Assembly: GCA_029582155.1 (NCBI GenBank)
Contig: CM055902.1
Location: 19,568,748-19,632,747, forward strand
DNA: 64,000 nt
Source: Panopea generosa
Taxonomy: Eukaryota > Mollusca > Bivalvia > Adapedonta > Hiatellidae
Direction: 5' to 3'
The notes under the pieces are model-generated. The model saw only the letters and a program-made list of their open reading frames with translations, had not been told where the DNA came from and did not search any database. Below are positions 53,401 through 55,727 of the stretch, in pieces (the stretch's first letter is position 1; every line of letters begins with the position of its first letter). The translations under genes and the position numbers were made by a program.

Positions 53401-55727
53401 TTTTGTTTAGCTGCTTTTTGCTTATTACTGGTTGCGTTGTGTTAATTGTTTCGTTGCATTTTGTTTAGCTGCTTTTTGCTTATAACTAGCTGCGTTGTGT
53501 TAATTATTTTGTTGCATTTTGTTAGTTGCTTTTTGCATTTTAATGTTTGAATATTACTTTTCGCATTAATCTGACTATCAGCAGAATTGCTTTTTTGCTT
53601 GTATTGCTATGTTAATTGCTTTTTCTTTCTTTTTATTTTGCTTACTTTTAATAGATTTGAAATGGATTTCAATGATACAGCTCGGCAGTATTTCATTGTG
53701 TGCGTGGTACACCGCCATATGTTAAAAAAGTAGAAAAAGCAATAAGCAAAAAAGCAATTAAGAACTTTTGTAGAGAAGGAAAAGCAACTGACTGAGATGC
53801 TGTGAACGCTCGGGTATTCACGCAAAATCTCGTTTTTAAATACCAGAAATACAAATAAGAAATATTTCTTTGCACAATGAAATTCTCTACAAAACGACAC
53901 CATTCTCAACAAATTGTGTTTAAAATTGATGAAGAACTAGTAATTACAAAAAGTTTATACTGCAACTAAAAAACAAGGAAAGTACTTGAAATCTTACTGT
54001 TAACTGGAATATTTTAAATTAAAGATCATGTCGCGTGTTTAAAACATTAAAAAACATCTAAGGTTACATACACCTTACATCTTATGTAAAAGAAATCAGT
54101 TGCCTGTGAAATTTGAATGATCAATTCACCAAATTATTAATACTTCACATGCTATTTTATAAACATTTAGTAAAGAGATGCAAGTTTCCTATCCTTCTAT
54201 ATAAGTCCTTGAAGCAATTAACAAGCAGCATGTCACAGTTGAACCTAGCATGTAAGGGTTTTTGTTCAAGGATGTAGGGTCTTTGTTCAAGGACCCTTTA
54301 CTTACCCTTATAACTAACATATGATGCACTTAACACATGACAGTATTGATTTCGGCACAACTTGCTAAGAAAGAAGGCCTCGCTAACAAACAGCGTTATT
54401 TATGGGTGCCTGGTGATTTGGTAAGTAACACGTGATTGTCGCACGAACTTTAAACGTAACAATGGTGTCACAAGTGTACATAGAACTGGTTGCAAATGTA
54501 ATAAAAAACTACAGCAAATTTAAAAGACTTACCTTACCACAAGTGTAAAAACAGGATGATGTGAATGTACTTGACCAAATATGGTGAAAGTCGGACGAGA
54601 GACAATAGGAATGTACTTTACGTTGATGGTAACATTTTATATAAAATTTCGTGGTAATGTTCCGCACTTGTAACAATTGTTACGTATAAGGAGACGCCGG
54701 TTATTTTTTATACATTAACTATAATATCTATAGCTTTTGCACAAGGTTAAAAAAATGTTATGACCCGTATATAAGATGTTGTCAATTCTTTAACTGCATG
54801 CCAAGTAAGTGTAGCATCGGTAGTTGCTGTTCGCCAAGGTCCAGGTGGAGGTACACCCACATATTTATGGACATCGTCGGATCCAGTAAGTACCCGGGTA
54901 TTATATTTGTATATAACACCAAGTTTGAATGTACATATGTGTGCATGCATGTACACGCGTCCGTGAGCAAAGAGGTGTTTAGTCTTTTAGTTTAACCACA
55001 GGTCTCGGATATATCCATAAACGACAAAATAACCTTTAAATCTGCTTAAAACAAACTAAAAGACACTTTATTGTCATATACGCAATGCTTTGGCAGATTT
55101 TTATGTTTGTGTTTTTGAAGCATGATTATTCAAAACGGGAGAGAGAGGAGGGCAGTGTTGGTCAAGAGATTGTTAGTCGCCCAGGTCAGAAGTCATCGTC
55201 CTAATTCCAGAATTTGACCGGTGACCTCTCTAAAGCATCAGTCAGTACTGGTTCTACCCAGAAAAACGATTCGAGGAACTCATAAGTTTCAAGTTTTAAC
55301 TTTAAGATCAAGCTTAAGTAAATGAATACTTATACATTTTAATTATGCCTTTTTATTCCCAACATTCTTTACCTTCTATCTTACTCACGTTAGCAGTTCA
55401 TTCCACCTTTTCGTTCGTTTACATGTTCTGACATTCCCTCTTACATCATTTCCTCCTTTCAGAAACAAAACTAAACATGAAACATAGATGATGGACAACT
55501 AGAGATACCAGATCATTATACCAGTGTTATTCTTGTTTCAGGGCTATGCACCACATCTTGTGTCAACCATATCCGAATGGCTAATGGCAATAGTCACTAC
55601 CATTTACTTCGGAACCTTCTATACAGAGTTTAAGCATTTTAGAGTGAAACCACCTGAAGTTATTTACTACGATTATGCAGAGGTTAATGAAGGCTACCAA
55701 GAAGAAGCAGTTTCTACCATAAGCTAA
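32385..55727 (+). CDS. DRAM/Frag1-family autophagy modulator, multi-exon gene with alternative exon 5
   Basis: The coding sequence joins 32385-32455, 39869-39990, 41988-42136, 52187-52388, then 54344-54420 or 54806-54885, then 55542-55727. All introns are GT-AG and boundary phases run 2, 1, 0, 1, 0 without conflict, giving 268 or 269 aa. About six membrane segments are visible (roughly 7-30, 53-75, 88-110, 119-142, 165-190, 213-238). Family marks are YISDTGT..PPESC in the first loop, NFQET..VH..GA between TM3 and TM4, and a W....D-x-GY..H..ST.SEW block leading into TM6. DRAM proteins sit in lysosomal or endosomal membranes and promote autophagy; that role is inferred here. The tail ends in a Tyr/Glu-rich stretch (YYDYAEVNEGYQ). 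Which paralogue it matches is not decided. Confidence 0.85.
32535..34425. repeat. ~18-bp minisatellite (CGGCTGTAACACAAGTGT), about 100 units, in intron 1
   Basis: Units of 'cggctgtaacacaagtgt' alternate with longer forms ending 'acaattat' or 'acagttgt'. Long minus-strand frames arise from it and are not genes. It begins about 80 bp after the exon 1 donor. Confidence 0.95.
34426..35145. other. Intron 1, unassigned AT-rich part
   Basis: The 99-codon plus frame at 34918-35217 is AT-biased and runs into a SINE; I do not call it a gene. Confidence 0.4.
35150..35355 (+). mobile_element. SINE, GGATATGCCATATATAACC-bodied family
   Basis: A degenerate tRNA-like B box ('gcaggtccgagtccc') is followed by 'gtcttcctccaccaataaaa', 'ctggatatgccatatataac' and 'aatggcgttaaaccc'. 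The same body recurs at 58545 (minus), 58985 (plus) and 60238 (minus). Confidence 0.7.
35356..35785. other. Intron 1, unassigned
   Basis: A short 'caccacgtgc' triplication lies near 35671-35712; nothing else is recognised. Confidence 0.4.
35786..36490. repeat. Four tandem ~170-190-bp repeats in intron 1
   Basis: The palindrome-like core 'gatgacattttgtcatcatt' or a variant recurs at about 35793, 35961, 36150 and 36336. Each is followed by 'gaaat..acaagatgg.g..caaaatgg' and 'cgaaatgcaatattt'. Confidence 0.8.
36491..38479. other. Interior of an inverted-repeat-bounded block in intron 1
   Basis: About 2 kb lies between the tandem repeats and their inverted copy. A minus frame of 87 codons (36619-36882) contains VHGNMHWILTHQVLIPKHFP, with normal-looking composition but no family that I recognise. 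It may be a remnant of an element-encoded protein. Confidence 0.3.
38480..38630 (-). repeat. Inverted copy of the 36.1-kb repeat unit
   Basis: In reverse complement it reads 'catggaagtgtatagtaata', a T-run, and 'tgacatcttgtcatcattga', matching 36082-36230 closely. Confidence 0.75.
38631..39086. other. Intron 1, unassigned
   Basis: Short plus frames at 38525-38761 and 38849-39067 have no recognisable product. Confidence 0.35.
39087..39390 (-). mobile_element. tRNA-derived SINE (minus), (TTG)n-ended
   Basis: It begins with (TTG)n, then 'tatggcgtcgctttcaacat', then body sequence shared with 23375, and ends with a tRNA-like head in reverse ('gctctgccactagaccactg'). Confidence 0.75.
39391..39868. 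other. End of intron 1
   Basis: AT-rich sequence ending in the acceptor 'cattatttacag' at 39868. The short plus frame at 39456-39638 shows no product. Confidence 0.4.
39869..39990 (+). CDS. DRAM-like gene, coding exon 2
   Basis: It starts in phase 2 and ends after one base of a Cys codon at a GTAAGT donor. It encodes the rest of TM1 and the diagnostic loop YISDTGTFPPESCVFGQLLN, then the start of TM2. Confidence 0.9.
40340..40555. repeat. Dispersed repeat, copy 1 (partner at 60.4 kb)
   Basis: It shares 'cgcaggctgtcaatcaaaca', 'ttccttagacaag', 'gtattacattgtatttac' and 'ggcggagcgatagtcgc' with 60380-60595, allowing small differences. It contains an imperfect palindrome around 'ctaagtaaatac...gtatttac'. 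Confidence 0.7.
40556..41080. other. Intron 2, unassigned
   Basis: AT-rich sequence with no gene signal. Confidence 0.4.
41085..41340 (+). mobile_element. SINE-like element with ATTG-repeat tail
   Basis: A degenerate B box ('catcggttcgagcccagc') is followed by 'tatgtgataatgattgtcac' and a body resembling 35150. The tail is 'gattattgattgattgac'. Confidence 0.55.
41341..41987. other. End of intron 2 with an (AT)n tract
   Basis: An (AT)n microsatellite lies at about 41841-41869 and a smaller one near 41921-41929. The intron ends with a good pyrimidine tract and AG at 41987. Confidence 0.6.
41988..42136 (+). CDS. DRAM-like gene, coding exon 3
   Basis: It completes the split Cys codon and encodes residues 66-114: the end of TM2 (IIVYIRYRHVYLKY), a short loop, and TM3 (LNTAAFVIGLITNLGVSIVG), ending NFQ in phase 0 at a GTAAGA donor. 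Confidence 0.92.
42230..42440 (+). mobile_element. Diverged SINE-like fragment in intron 3
   Basis: Pieces such as 'gggtttgatccttcgctagg' and 'agtactggttctggccagga' match the SINE family at 48690, but the A-box part is decayed. The large array begins right after it. Confidence 0.45.
42440..47640. repeat. 57-58-bp minisatellite, about 90 units (5.2 kb), in intron 3
   Basis: The unit is 'gtccgggcggagtagcatgg', then 'ctttcctcattgtggtgttc', then 'agcatgtcagtatatggt'. From 42.9 to 43.9 kb six-unit blocks repeat at 346-bp spacing (42900, 43246, 43592), followed by a 288-bp five-unit step. The resulting open frames (MWCSACQYMVSG type) are artefacts. Confidence 0.96.
47641..47893. other. Intron 3, unassigned
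   Basis: Short unique stretch after the array. Confidence 0.35.
47894..48057 (+). repeat. Left arm of a 164-bp inverted repeat
   Basis: It pairs with 49331-49494 at high identity over the whole length, including 'gggtgtaaatgtttctttct' and 'tcattgtaaaagttacatac'. Confidence 0.85.
48058..49330. other. Interior of the inverted repeat, with a SINE insertion
   Basis: No transposase-like frame was found. A SINE occupies 48690-48890. A smaller hairpin with arms 'gccgctgaacgtt' and 'gacgttcagcggc' lies at about 49092-49147. Confidence 0.5.
48690..48890 (+). mobile_element. tRNA-derived SINE
   Basis: The head reads 'gcatggtccagtggtagagc', then B box 'gtgggttcgatcctcc'. The body is 'ggtgtccttgagtaagacac' and 'agaagacttcgagcgtga', ending A-rich. 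Confidence 0.8.
49331..49494 (-). repeat. Right arm of the 164-bp inverted repeat
   Basis: It is the reverse complement of 47894-48057 apart from scattered mismatches. Confidence 0.85.
49730..52125. repeat. 17-bp minisatellite (ACCTGTGTACATATTAG), about 140 units, in intron 3
   Basis: Units alternate 'acctgtgtacatattag' with 'atccttgtacatattag', giving a 34-bp dimer in parts. A local block at about 50180-50345 has 'acgtatt' in place of 'acatatt'. It ends about 60 bp before exon 4. Confidence 0.96.
52187..52388 (+). CDS. DRAM-like gene, coding exon 4
   Basis: It starts in phase 0 after 'tttattttgttttcag'-style pyrimidine sequence and encodes residues 115-181: ETSVIVVHLIGALMAF and the rest of TM4, a basic loop (NMRRFRAS), and most of TM5 (LCVIDVALLLICIL). 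It ends one base into a codon at a GTAAAA donor, which is weaker than the other donors in this gene. Confidence 0.92.
52408..52668. repeat. (GAGACA)n / (GACA)n microsatellite next to the exon 4 donor
   Basis: A pure GAGA/GAGACA tract passes into about 50 copies of CAGA/GACA and ends in GGCA variants. It starts only about 20 bp after the exon 4 donor. Confidence 0.95.
52735..52930 (+). mobile_element. tRNA-derived SINE in intron 4
   Basis: The head 'cgtgggccagtggttaaaca', then 'gtgggttcgatcccccacca', matches the 48690 copy; it ends 'cgatcgaagtgaatgaata'. Confidence 0.78.
52931..53295. other. Intron 4, unassigned
   Basis: AT-rich sequence; nothing recognised. Confidence 0.4.
53296..53545. repeat. 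~61-bp tandem repeat, about 4 units
   Basis: The unit holds 'gcgttgtgttaatt', 'ttttgttgcgttttgtttag' and 'ctgctttttgcttat'. Confidence 0.8.
53803..54215. repeat. Dispersed repeat, copy 2 (partner at 185-570)
   Basis: It is in the same orientation as copy 1. The best match is 'gatgcaagtttcctatcctt' and its flanks. Confidence 0.6.
54344..54420 (+). CDS. DRAM-like gene, alternative exon 5a
   Basis: It is 77 nt. It starts with TA, which completes a Val codon with the last base of exon 4, and ends in phase 0 at a strong GTAAGT donor. It encodes 25 further residues ending RYLWVPGDL. A branch-like 'ctaac' lies about 30 bp upstream; the pyrimidine tract is weak. It occupies the same slot as 5b: same entry and exit phase, same YLW-x3-D pattern, and one codon shorter. 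Spliced to exon 6 it gives the family-like W-x-P-x-D-x-GY junction. It was found only by reading frame and splice sites, so expression is unproven. Confidence 0.68.
54806..54885 (+). CDS. DRAM-like gene, alternative exon 5b
   Basis: It is 80 nt. It also starts with TA completing a Val codon and ends in phase 0 at a GTAAGT donor. It encodes SVASVVAVRQGPGGG, then TPTYLWTSSDP. The following exon begins GYAPHLVSTISEW, giving the usual W..xDPGY..H junction. Using 5a and 5b together (157 nt) or neither would shift the frame. The acceptor 'ccaag' runs straight into 'taagt', so a GTAAGT donor motif overlaps it. Confidence 0.75.
55195..55335 (+). mobile_element. Diverged SINE fragment in the last intron
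   Basis: The pieces 'cagtactggttctacccaga' and 'aagcttaagtaaatgaata' match the 3' half of the 48690 family. Confidence 0.45.
55542..55727 (+). CDS. DRAM-like gene, last coding exon
   Basis: It starts in phase 0 after 'attcttgtttcag' and encodes residues 209-269, then TAA at 55725-55727. It contains GYAPHLVSTISEWLMAIV, TM6, a short basic turn, and a Tyr/Glu-rich cytosolic tail. The last codons (E-A-V-S-T-I-S-stop) lie inside the first unit of the following 53-bp array. No AATAAA signal was seen by eye in the next 2 kb; the first one noticed is near 58480. Confidence 0.92.
   Translation, partial: GYAPHLVSTISEWLMAIVTTIYFGTFYTEFKHFRVKPPEVIYYDYAEVNEGYQEEAVSTIS

Follow-up and report, generated by a model that had tools for sequence, protein, structure and literature searches.

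Why does a membrane-protein gene carry two tandem copies of one exon, and what would keep each of its messages to a single copy? The question is raised by a DRAM/Frag1-family gene of the clam Panopea generosa, for which a preliminary description proposed mutually exclusive duplicated exons, 5a and 5b. All coordinates refer to the window that we analyzed, a 64,000-nt stretch of contig CM055902.1 (positions 19,568,748-19,632,747, forward strand), which is rich in long tandem repeats. The gene is predicted to be laid out as follows.

32385..32455, + strand: exon 1 (MLETKHHLLPIILAIYLPVSFIIT), donor GTGAGT, phase 2
39869..39990, + strand: exon 2, splice sites U2-type
41988..42136, + strand: exon 3, splice sites U2-type
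52187..52379, + strand: exon 4 (193 nt), 3' end most likely at a U12-type donor
52380..52388, + strand: U12-type 5' splice site GTATCCTTG, with the core GTATCCTT that also closes exon 4 in two paralogs
54326..54334, + strand: match to a U12-type branch point for exon 5a, GCACTTAAC, with its A 10 nt 5' of the G in AG
54344..54420, + strand: exon 5a (77 nt), LLISAQLAKKEGLANKQRYLWVPGDL, U2-type donor GTAAGT
54786..54794, + strand: match to a U12-type branch point for exon 5b, TTCTTTAAC, with its A 12 nt 5' of the G in AG
54806..54885, + strand: exon 5b (80 nt), LSVASVVAVRQGPGGGTPTYLWTSSDP, U2-type donor GTAAGT
55542..55727, + strand: exon 6, the last coding exon, GYAPHLVSTISEW..., U2-type acceptor, starting in phase 0

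Membership of the family is clear from the PF10277 (DRAM / Frag1) profile, against which the two isoforms, taken without exon 1 and with the exon 4 donor of the preliminary description, scored 152.6 and 150.3 bits relative to a cut-off of 30.3. The closest full-length protein among the matches listed was 61% identical, and the N-terminus encoded by exon 1 is of the same kind in relatives P0001, P0004, and P0005. The predicted fold of P0001, a relative rather than the clam protein itself, has six long helices (mean pLDDT 89.2); no solved structure related by sequence was found, and a fold search returned no convincing match (best E 0.22). Lysosomal location and an autophagy role would be carried over to the clam protein by analogy with the vertebrate proteins.

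The coordinates first given for 5a and 5b proved correct, as did their lengths and their spacing of 385 nt: both exons begin with TA, end in phase 0 at GTAAGT, and have a length of 2 modulo 3. The accompanying frame argument, that either copy alone joins exon 4 to exon 6 in frame, holds with either candidate donor of exon 4. If both copies were included, 5b would open with a TAA codon, 80 nt upstream of the last junction, and skipping from exon 4 to exon 6 leads to an early stop within exon 6. The two are tandem homologous exons in one slot and one phase that share 7 of 26 residues, with an alignment score of 27 that was matched by none of 2000 shuffles; both frames are open, both sets of splice sites are intact, and the flanking sequence is unalignable. 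Divergence is saturated, with identities of 10, 13, and 10 of 26 at the three codon positions. These sequences suggest that exon 5 was duplicated long ago and that 5a and 5b have since diverged. That they are instead an assembly artefact, in which two haplotypes or genes were set side by side, is extremely improbable: the abundance of long tandem repeats would favor such an error, but exons 2, 3, 4, and 6 were each located once at the locus, the 601-bp stretch holding 5a and 5b occurs once in the genome, and the divergence of the copies lies far beyond that of alleles.

A second alternative is that a single copy is in use, leaving the other (5a being the likelier candidate) as a relic or an unused exon. 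The 5b exon is of the usual clam form (GPG type), no 5a-type exon could be recognized among the heterodont proteins listed, which are of the 5b type or neither, and the branch-point match of 5a is the weaker one. Against this, 5a has kept its frame, AG, GTAAGT, and branch point despite saturated divergence, and it retains the W and D that precede GY. In neutral simulations with assumed rates, an open frame together with AG and GT survived in 2.5-18% of runs, and in less than 1% without indels. The best match of 5a was to Solemya. We therefore consider disuse of one copy quite unlikely. The contrast originally drawn between a basic 5a and a glycine-rich 5b needs a change of emphasis: the GPG stretch of 5b is the common form among the listed heterodont relatives, and 5a is the unusual copy. 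A combined scan, for an AG with a U12-like branch point of at least 5 bits, an open frame of 2 modulo 3, a U2-like donor, and a Trp near the end, picked out exactly 5a and 5b on the + strand of the whole window, nothing on the - strand, and nothing when the exon 4-6 interval was put through 300 Markov shuffles; its criteria were fixed after the pair was seen, so the result speaks to rarity rather than to blind discovery.

The answer to what would separate the copies appears to lie at the end of exon 4, in a U12-type intron that the preliminary description did not recognize. This end was first set at 52388, but it is most likely 9 nt earlier, at 52379, judging from the RTATCCTT-type donor GTATCCTTG at 52380. 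This donor is preceded by AT, unlike the AG of the misclassified U12 sites described in passages of PMC10853781, and its use raises the score of both isoforms against a 55-homolog profile by ~6 bits. The codon split between exons 4 and 5 thereby becomes T+TA, or Leu, rather than the Val proposed earlier, with the TA start of both exons unchanged. A donor after 52388 was rejected because the three residues that it inserts are present in none of the 120 aligned relatives; without them, both isoforms fit the family with no gap. Intron 4 could still be an ordinary U2 intron with U12-like motifs arising by chance: GTAAAA at 52389, 9 nt 3' of the U12 donor, could serve as a U2 donor in the correct phase, and the + strand of the window contains 7 exact RTATCCTT matches where ~3 are expected, so that the motif alone is not rare and carries weight only through its position at the in-phase end of exon 4. 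We regard this as very improbable, since the GTAAAA donor brings the insert and costs ~6 bits in both isoforms, two acceptors both having U12-like branch points are improbable by chance, and the motifs recur in both paralogs.

At both exon 5 acceptors, a TTCCTTRAY-like branch-point match falls within the range of 9-20 nt from AG. Scored with a branch-point matrix, the match was 10.2 bits at 5b (top 0.15% of 3356 AGs) and a modest 6.5 bits at 5a (top 0.66%), compared with at most 0.7 bits at the acceptors of exons 2, 3, 4, and 6. An alternative 5b acceptor 9 nt further 3' was without a branch-point match and was rejected. A U12-type acceptor is expected to lack a pyrimidine tract; pyrimidine content was 47% for 5a and 59% for exon 2, and, as a point against the U12 reading, 71% for 5b, equal to the 71% of exon 6. 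The donors of 5a and 5b and the acceptor of exon 6 are U2-type by motif. The same intron type recurs in two DRAM paralogs on this contig, each with one exon 5: their donors read GTATCCTT, and their branch points, CTCCTTAAC and TTCCTTAAC, lie 11 nt from AG. U12 snRNA was found in the genome, with both matches exceeding the cut-off, and removal of intron 4 by the minor spliceosome is predicted.

If intron 4 is a minor intron, the single U12 donor of exon 4 would pair with the U12 acceptor of either 5a or 5b, and either copy would be joined through its U2 donor to exon 6, which has a U2 acceptor. A direct 4-6 junction, like a 5a-5b junction, would bring a U2 and a U12 site together and be disfavored; because skipping and double inclusion each need such a pairing, site class alone predicts exactly one copy per message. 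It is thus very probable, on sequence grounds, that this DRAM/Frag1 gene has two exon 5 copies kept exclusive by U12/U2 site classes. We infer that both copies are used and that site class enforces exclusivity in cells; 5b, having the stronger branch-point match, may be the default. U2/U12 incompatibility is not absolute, as passages of PMC10853781 report that the U12-type 3' site of human DRAM2 also accepts U2-type 5' sites. Both copies could also be used with exclusivity arising from decay of frame-shifted products, RNA structure, steric hindrance, or trans-acting repressors, which we consider unlikely. The immediate TAA at the start of 5b and the early stop after skipping are such that decay could clear errors, and a double-inclusion message would probably be degraded, but the splice-site classes by themselves disfavor both wrong joins. 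The 385-nt intron between 5a and 5b is long enough for splicing, and in a limited test of 16 inverted-repeat pairs of at least 14 nt none was a docking site common to 5a and 5b. Docking-site RNA structure was rejected with no shared site in that test and with the first 121 nt of intron 4 folding no better than shuffles (z 0.92). Exon choice would exchange the last part of TM5 together with the loop between TM5 and TM6, and this swap may tune a luminal interaction.

Alternative exons adjoining a minor intron are known from other gene families, namely exons 6a/6b (7a/7b) of MAPK8/9 (JNK) and exons 11/11a of TMEM87A/B, whose exclusivity is attributed in passages of PMC8329584, PMC3584512, and PMC6717393 to competing U2 and U12 sites. 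As described there, these exons have U2 acceptors and U12 donors and lie 5' of the minor intron. The clam exons show the reverse, with U12 acceptors and U2 donors 3' of the minor intron, a mirror arrangement. Among human mutually exclusive exon clusters, 5 (0.79%) are explained by U2/U12 incompatibility in the account of PMC5740500. Within the DRAM family, c.518 of human DRAM2 is placed at the start of exon 7 in a passage of PMC9266529, and this start coincides with that of clam exon 5 in alignment column and phase; a U12-type 3' site in human DRAM2 is noted in a passage of PMC10853781. Mouse Dram2 has a minor intron with alternative splicing around it, in which both flanking exons are skipped along with low-level other events, and the passages of PMC6717393 that describe it mention no duplicated exon; this minor intron may be the counterpart of human intron 6.

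The same slot varies in other animals, so the idea that an either-or slot is unique to the clam window was rejected. A scan of 257 proteins, drawn from the best 120 of 189, 72 of 72, and best 120 of 267 matches, which overlap, flagged 15 pairs; because clustering at 90% conceals isoforms of the same cluster, pairs from bivalves may have escaped it. Exon 5 pairs came from Bolinopsis microptera (6), Owenia fusiformis (1), and Lineus longissimus (1). DRAM2-like isoforms of Bolinopsis (X2/X3/X4) and Lineus (X1/X3) and two Owenia proteins differ only at the exon 5 slot, with 100% identity outside it, and the swap begins at the clam's split codon position. X6, a member of three Bolinopsis pairs, combines exon 5 of X2 with a different C-terminus. 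In Bolinopsis and Lineus the copies resemble one another more than those of other species, which is not so in Owenia, and the sequences suggest that exon 5 copies may have originated independently across animals. One exon 4 pair, DRAM-like X1/X2 of Glandiceps talaboti, has a swap bounded by the position of the clam gene's intron 4; Glandiceps swaps exon 4, in a JNK-like orientation, whereas the clam swaps exon 5. For these four animals, compared here as proteins, we infer the U12 intron from position. Four pairs were set aside with species different or unnamed (P0018/P0022, P0074/P0227, P0095/P0223, and P0132/P0140), as were an Oryzias pair differing in the exon 6 part (P0144/P0148) and a Stigmatopora pair with a disrupted isoform (P0151/P0176). 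With the PF10277 match, the shared slot and phase, the intact frames and sites, and swaps in three animals, mutually exclusive duplicated exons in a DRAM gene, as originally proposed, is the best reading.

No description of duplicated exons in DRAM was found in the open-licence PMC literature, and papers naming both DRAM2 and mutually exclusive exons list DRAM2, in the passages concerned, as exon skipping, as an event of unstated type, or as a table entry. The clam pair is a well-supported case of a known kind, U12/U2 mutually exclusive exons, in a form undescribed for DRAM in that literature. We lean slightly towards a broader proposal, that the old DRAM minor intron is an exclusivity trap: because the two ends of an adjoining exon belong to different spliceosomes, a tandem copy of either adjoining exon would be born mutually exclusive, and either-or exons would therefore have evolved repeatedly in the family. 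If so, exon 5 pairs would have arisen in ctenophores, annelids, nemerteans, and bivalves and an exon 4 pair in hemichordates, and a stress-related lysosomal protein would have its TM5-TM6 loop under minor-spliceosome control. In that case the DRAM family would be a natural setting in which to ask whether exons duplicated beside minor introns are steered into becoming either-or switches, and its loop would be marked as a region that animals seem to vary on purpose.

Elsewhere in the clam genome, Frag1 matches on C13, on C3 near 58.9 Mb, and on C3 near 9.7 Mb gave a best E of 0.4 with DRAM queries. Further Frag1 matches were seen on C3 near 17.3 and 34.4 Mb, and two other weak matches fell on C18 and C14.

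The DRAM/Frag1-family (PF10277) autophagy gene of the window, situated on C9, one of the contigs of a 1.47-Gb genome, has two candidate versions of exon 5, termed 5a and 5b. The positions, lengths, 385-nt spacing and shared ends put forward for them in the preliminary description agreed with the sequence, and we added an exon 1, so that the coding part spans 32385-55727:

32385-32455, plus strand, exon 1, newly added
54344-54420, plus strand, exon 5a, 77 nt, starts TA, ends in phase 0 at GTAAGT
54806-54885, plus strand, exon 5b, 80 nt, starts TA, ends in phase 0 at GTAAGT
from 55542, plus strand, exon 6, phase 0

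The predicted proteins are 265 (5a form) and 266 (5b form) residues long, scoring 152.6 and 150.3 bits against the PF10277 profile with exon 1 omitted and the exon 4 donor originally proposed. The top database match, P0001, was 61% identical over the whole query, the partial protein P0035 was 64% identical over 54%, and the nearest named relatives among the matches listed were bivalve proteins. In the P0001 structural model, exon 5 corresponds to residues 178-204, taking in the final 11 residues of helix 158-188 together with the loop that leads into helix 206-228; this loop presumably faces the lumen.

The donor originally proposed for exon 4 (exon end 52388) creates a three-residue insert that was filled in 0 of 120 aligned relatives, and we prefer a U12-type (minor spliceosome) donor, GTATCCTTG, 9 bases upstream in identical phase (exon end 52379). 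With it the insert disappears, the split codon, previously read as Val, becomes Leu with either 5a or 5b, and scores against a profile of 55 homologs are about 6 bits higher in both isoforms (333.0 vs 327.1 and 332.2 vs 326.1). RTATCCTT is not rare alone (7 exact matches on the window's plus strand and 1 on the other, with about 3 expected). The donor directly follows AT and not AG, which has been described as a mark of misclassified introns (PMC10853781), and the gene's remaining donors are GTAAG or GTGAG. By matrix score, U12-type branch-point matches lie 10 nt before the AG of 5a (6.5 bits, top 0.66% of 3356 AGs) and 12 nt before that of 5b (10.2 bits, top 0.15%); the acceptors of exons 2, 3, 4, and 6 scored at most 0.7 bits. 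A 2.4-kb minisatellite (49720-52130, units like TTAGACCTGTGTACATA) occupies the intron almost to exon 4, and a long GAGACA/GACA repeat (52410-52660) begins about 30 nt past the U12-type donor, near enough that it could affect splicing or differ among individuals.

We detected two further DRAM genes in the same genome, both on C9, in which exon 4 ends at GTATCCTT and a branch-point match lies 11 nt before exon 5, CTCCTTAAC at 13.2 bits in one and TTCCTTAAC at 14.5 bits in the other; the genome also holds two U12 snRNA matches above cut-off. Scanning revealed one exon 5 per paralog, each with a second, nested acceptor, as against two distinct copies for the gene of the window. In the region carrying the second paralog (L016, reverse strand), an exon-5-like stretch, VVGHCAFCGEKANGIDKMMWQTD, about 340 nt upstream of exon 4 is followed by a stop and then an exon-6-like stretch, also ahead of exon 4; the two may be left over from a past block duplication. 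Codon 173 of human DRAM2, in a protein sequence checked against three published variants, matches the window's exon 4/5 junction in alignment column and intron phase. The human variant c.518-1G>A is tabulated under exon 7 (PMC9266529), and for mouse Dram2 a minor intron is described, together with alternative splicing in its vicinity (PMC6717393).

Under the proposed mechanism, the U12-type donor of exon 4 would pair with the acceptor of either 5a or 5b, and their U2-type (major spliceosome) donors would pair with exon 6, such that skipping (4 to 6) and double inclusion (5a to 5b) would each cross U2/U12 classes. Double inclusion also turns the first codon of 5b into TAA, 80 nt before the last junction. 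From the sequence, we infer that both exons are probably used and strictly exclusive, in an arrangement opposite to that described for the MAPK8/9 and TMEM87 exon pairs (PMC8329584). The incompatibility is not absolute, because the U12-type 3' site of human DRAM2 also accepts U2-type donors (PMC10853781).

5a and 5b are identical at 7 of 26 residues (10, 13, and 10 of 26 bases at the three codon positions), a similarity score matched by 0 of 2000 shuffles; their flanks aligned no better than shuffles. Among 245 exon 5 peptides, 5b is nearest to heterodont GPG-type peptides, with a score of 68; the best score for 5a is 46, with Solemya, and its next best is 32. Therefore, the earlier contrast between a basic 5a and a glycine-rich 5b stands with its emphasis reversed: 5b (GPG) is the usual form and 5a the unusual one, perhaps the older-looking version.

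Comparing isoforms across three search listings, 257 proteins in all, revealed swaps in other animals. Bolinopsis X2, X3, and X4 carry three exon 5 versions and are identical elsewhere; differences are confined to exon 5 in Lineus X1 vs X3 and in two Owenia proteins, and to exon 4 in Glandiceps X1 vs X2, the rest being identical. In all four the swap is delimited by the split codon, which encodes the 14th residue past the conserved Arg; these cases were read from proteins, and a U12 intron on the DNA side may be supposed. Sequences of two Mytilus species diverge from the split-codon residue through the C-terminus, a difference that is no more than suggestive. Across 12 exon 5 peptides, best scores fell within species for Bolinopsis and Lineus, not for Owenia, and the peptides suggest that exon 5 duplications may have arisen independently. 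One protein, P0123 (Saccostrea echinata, 512 residues), contains two DRAM units, probably tandem genes merged in annotation. Elsewhere in the window, a single open frame of 488 residues (4576-6042, minus strand) encodes what we take to resemble a rhodopsin-type GPCR.
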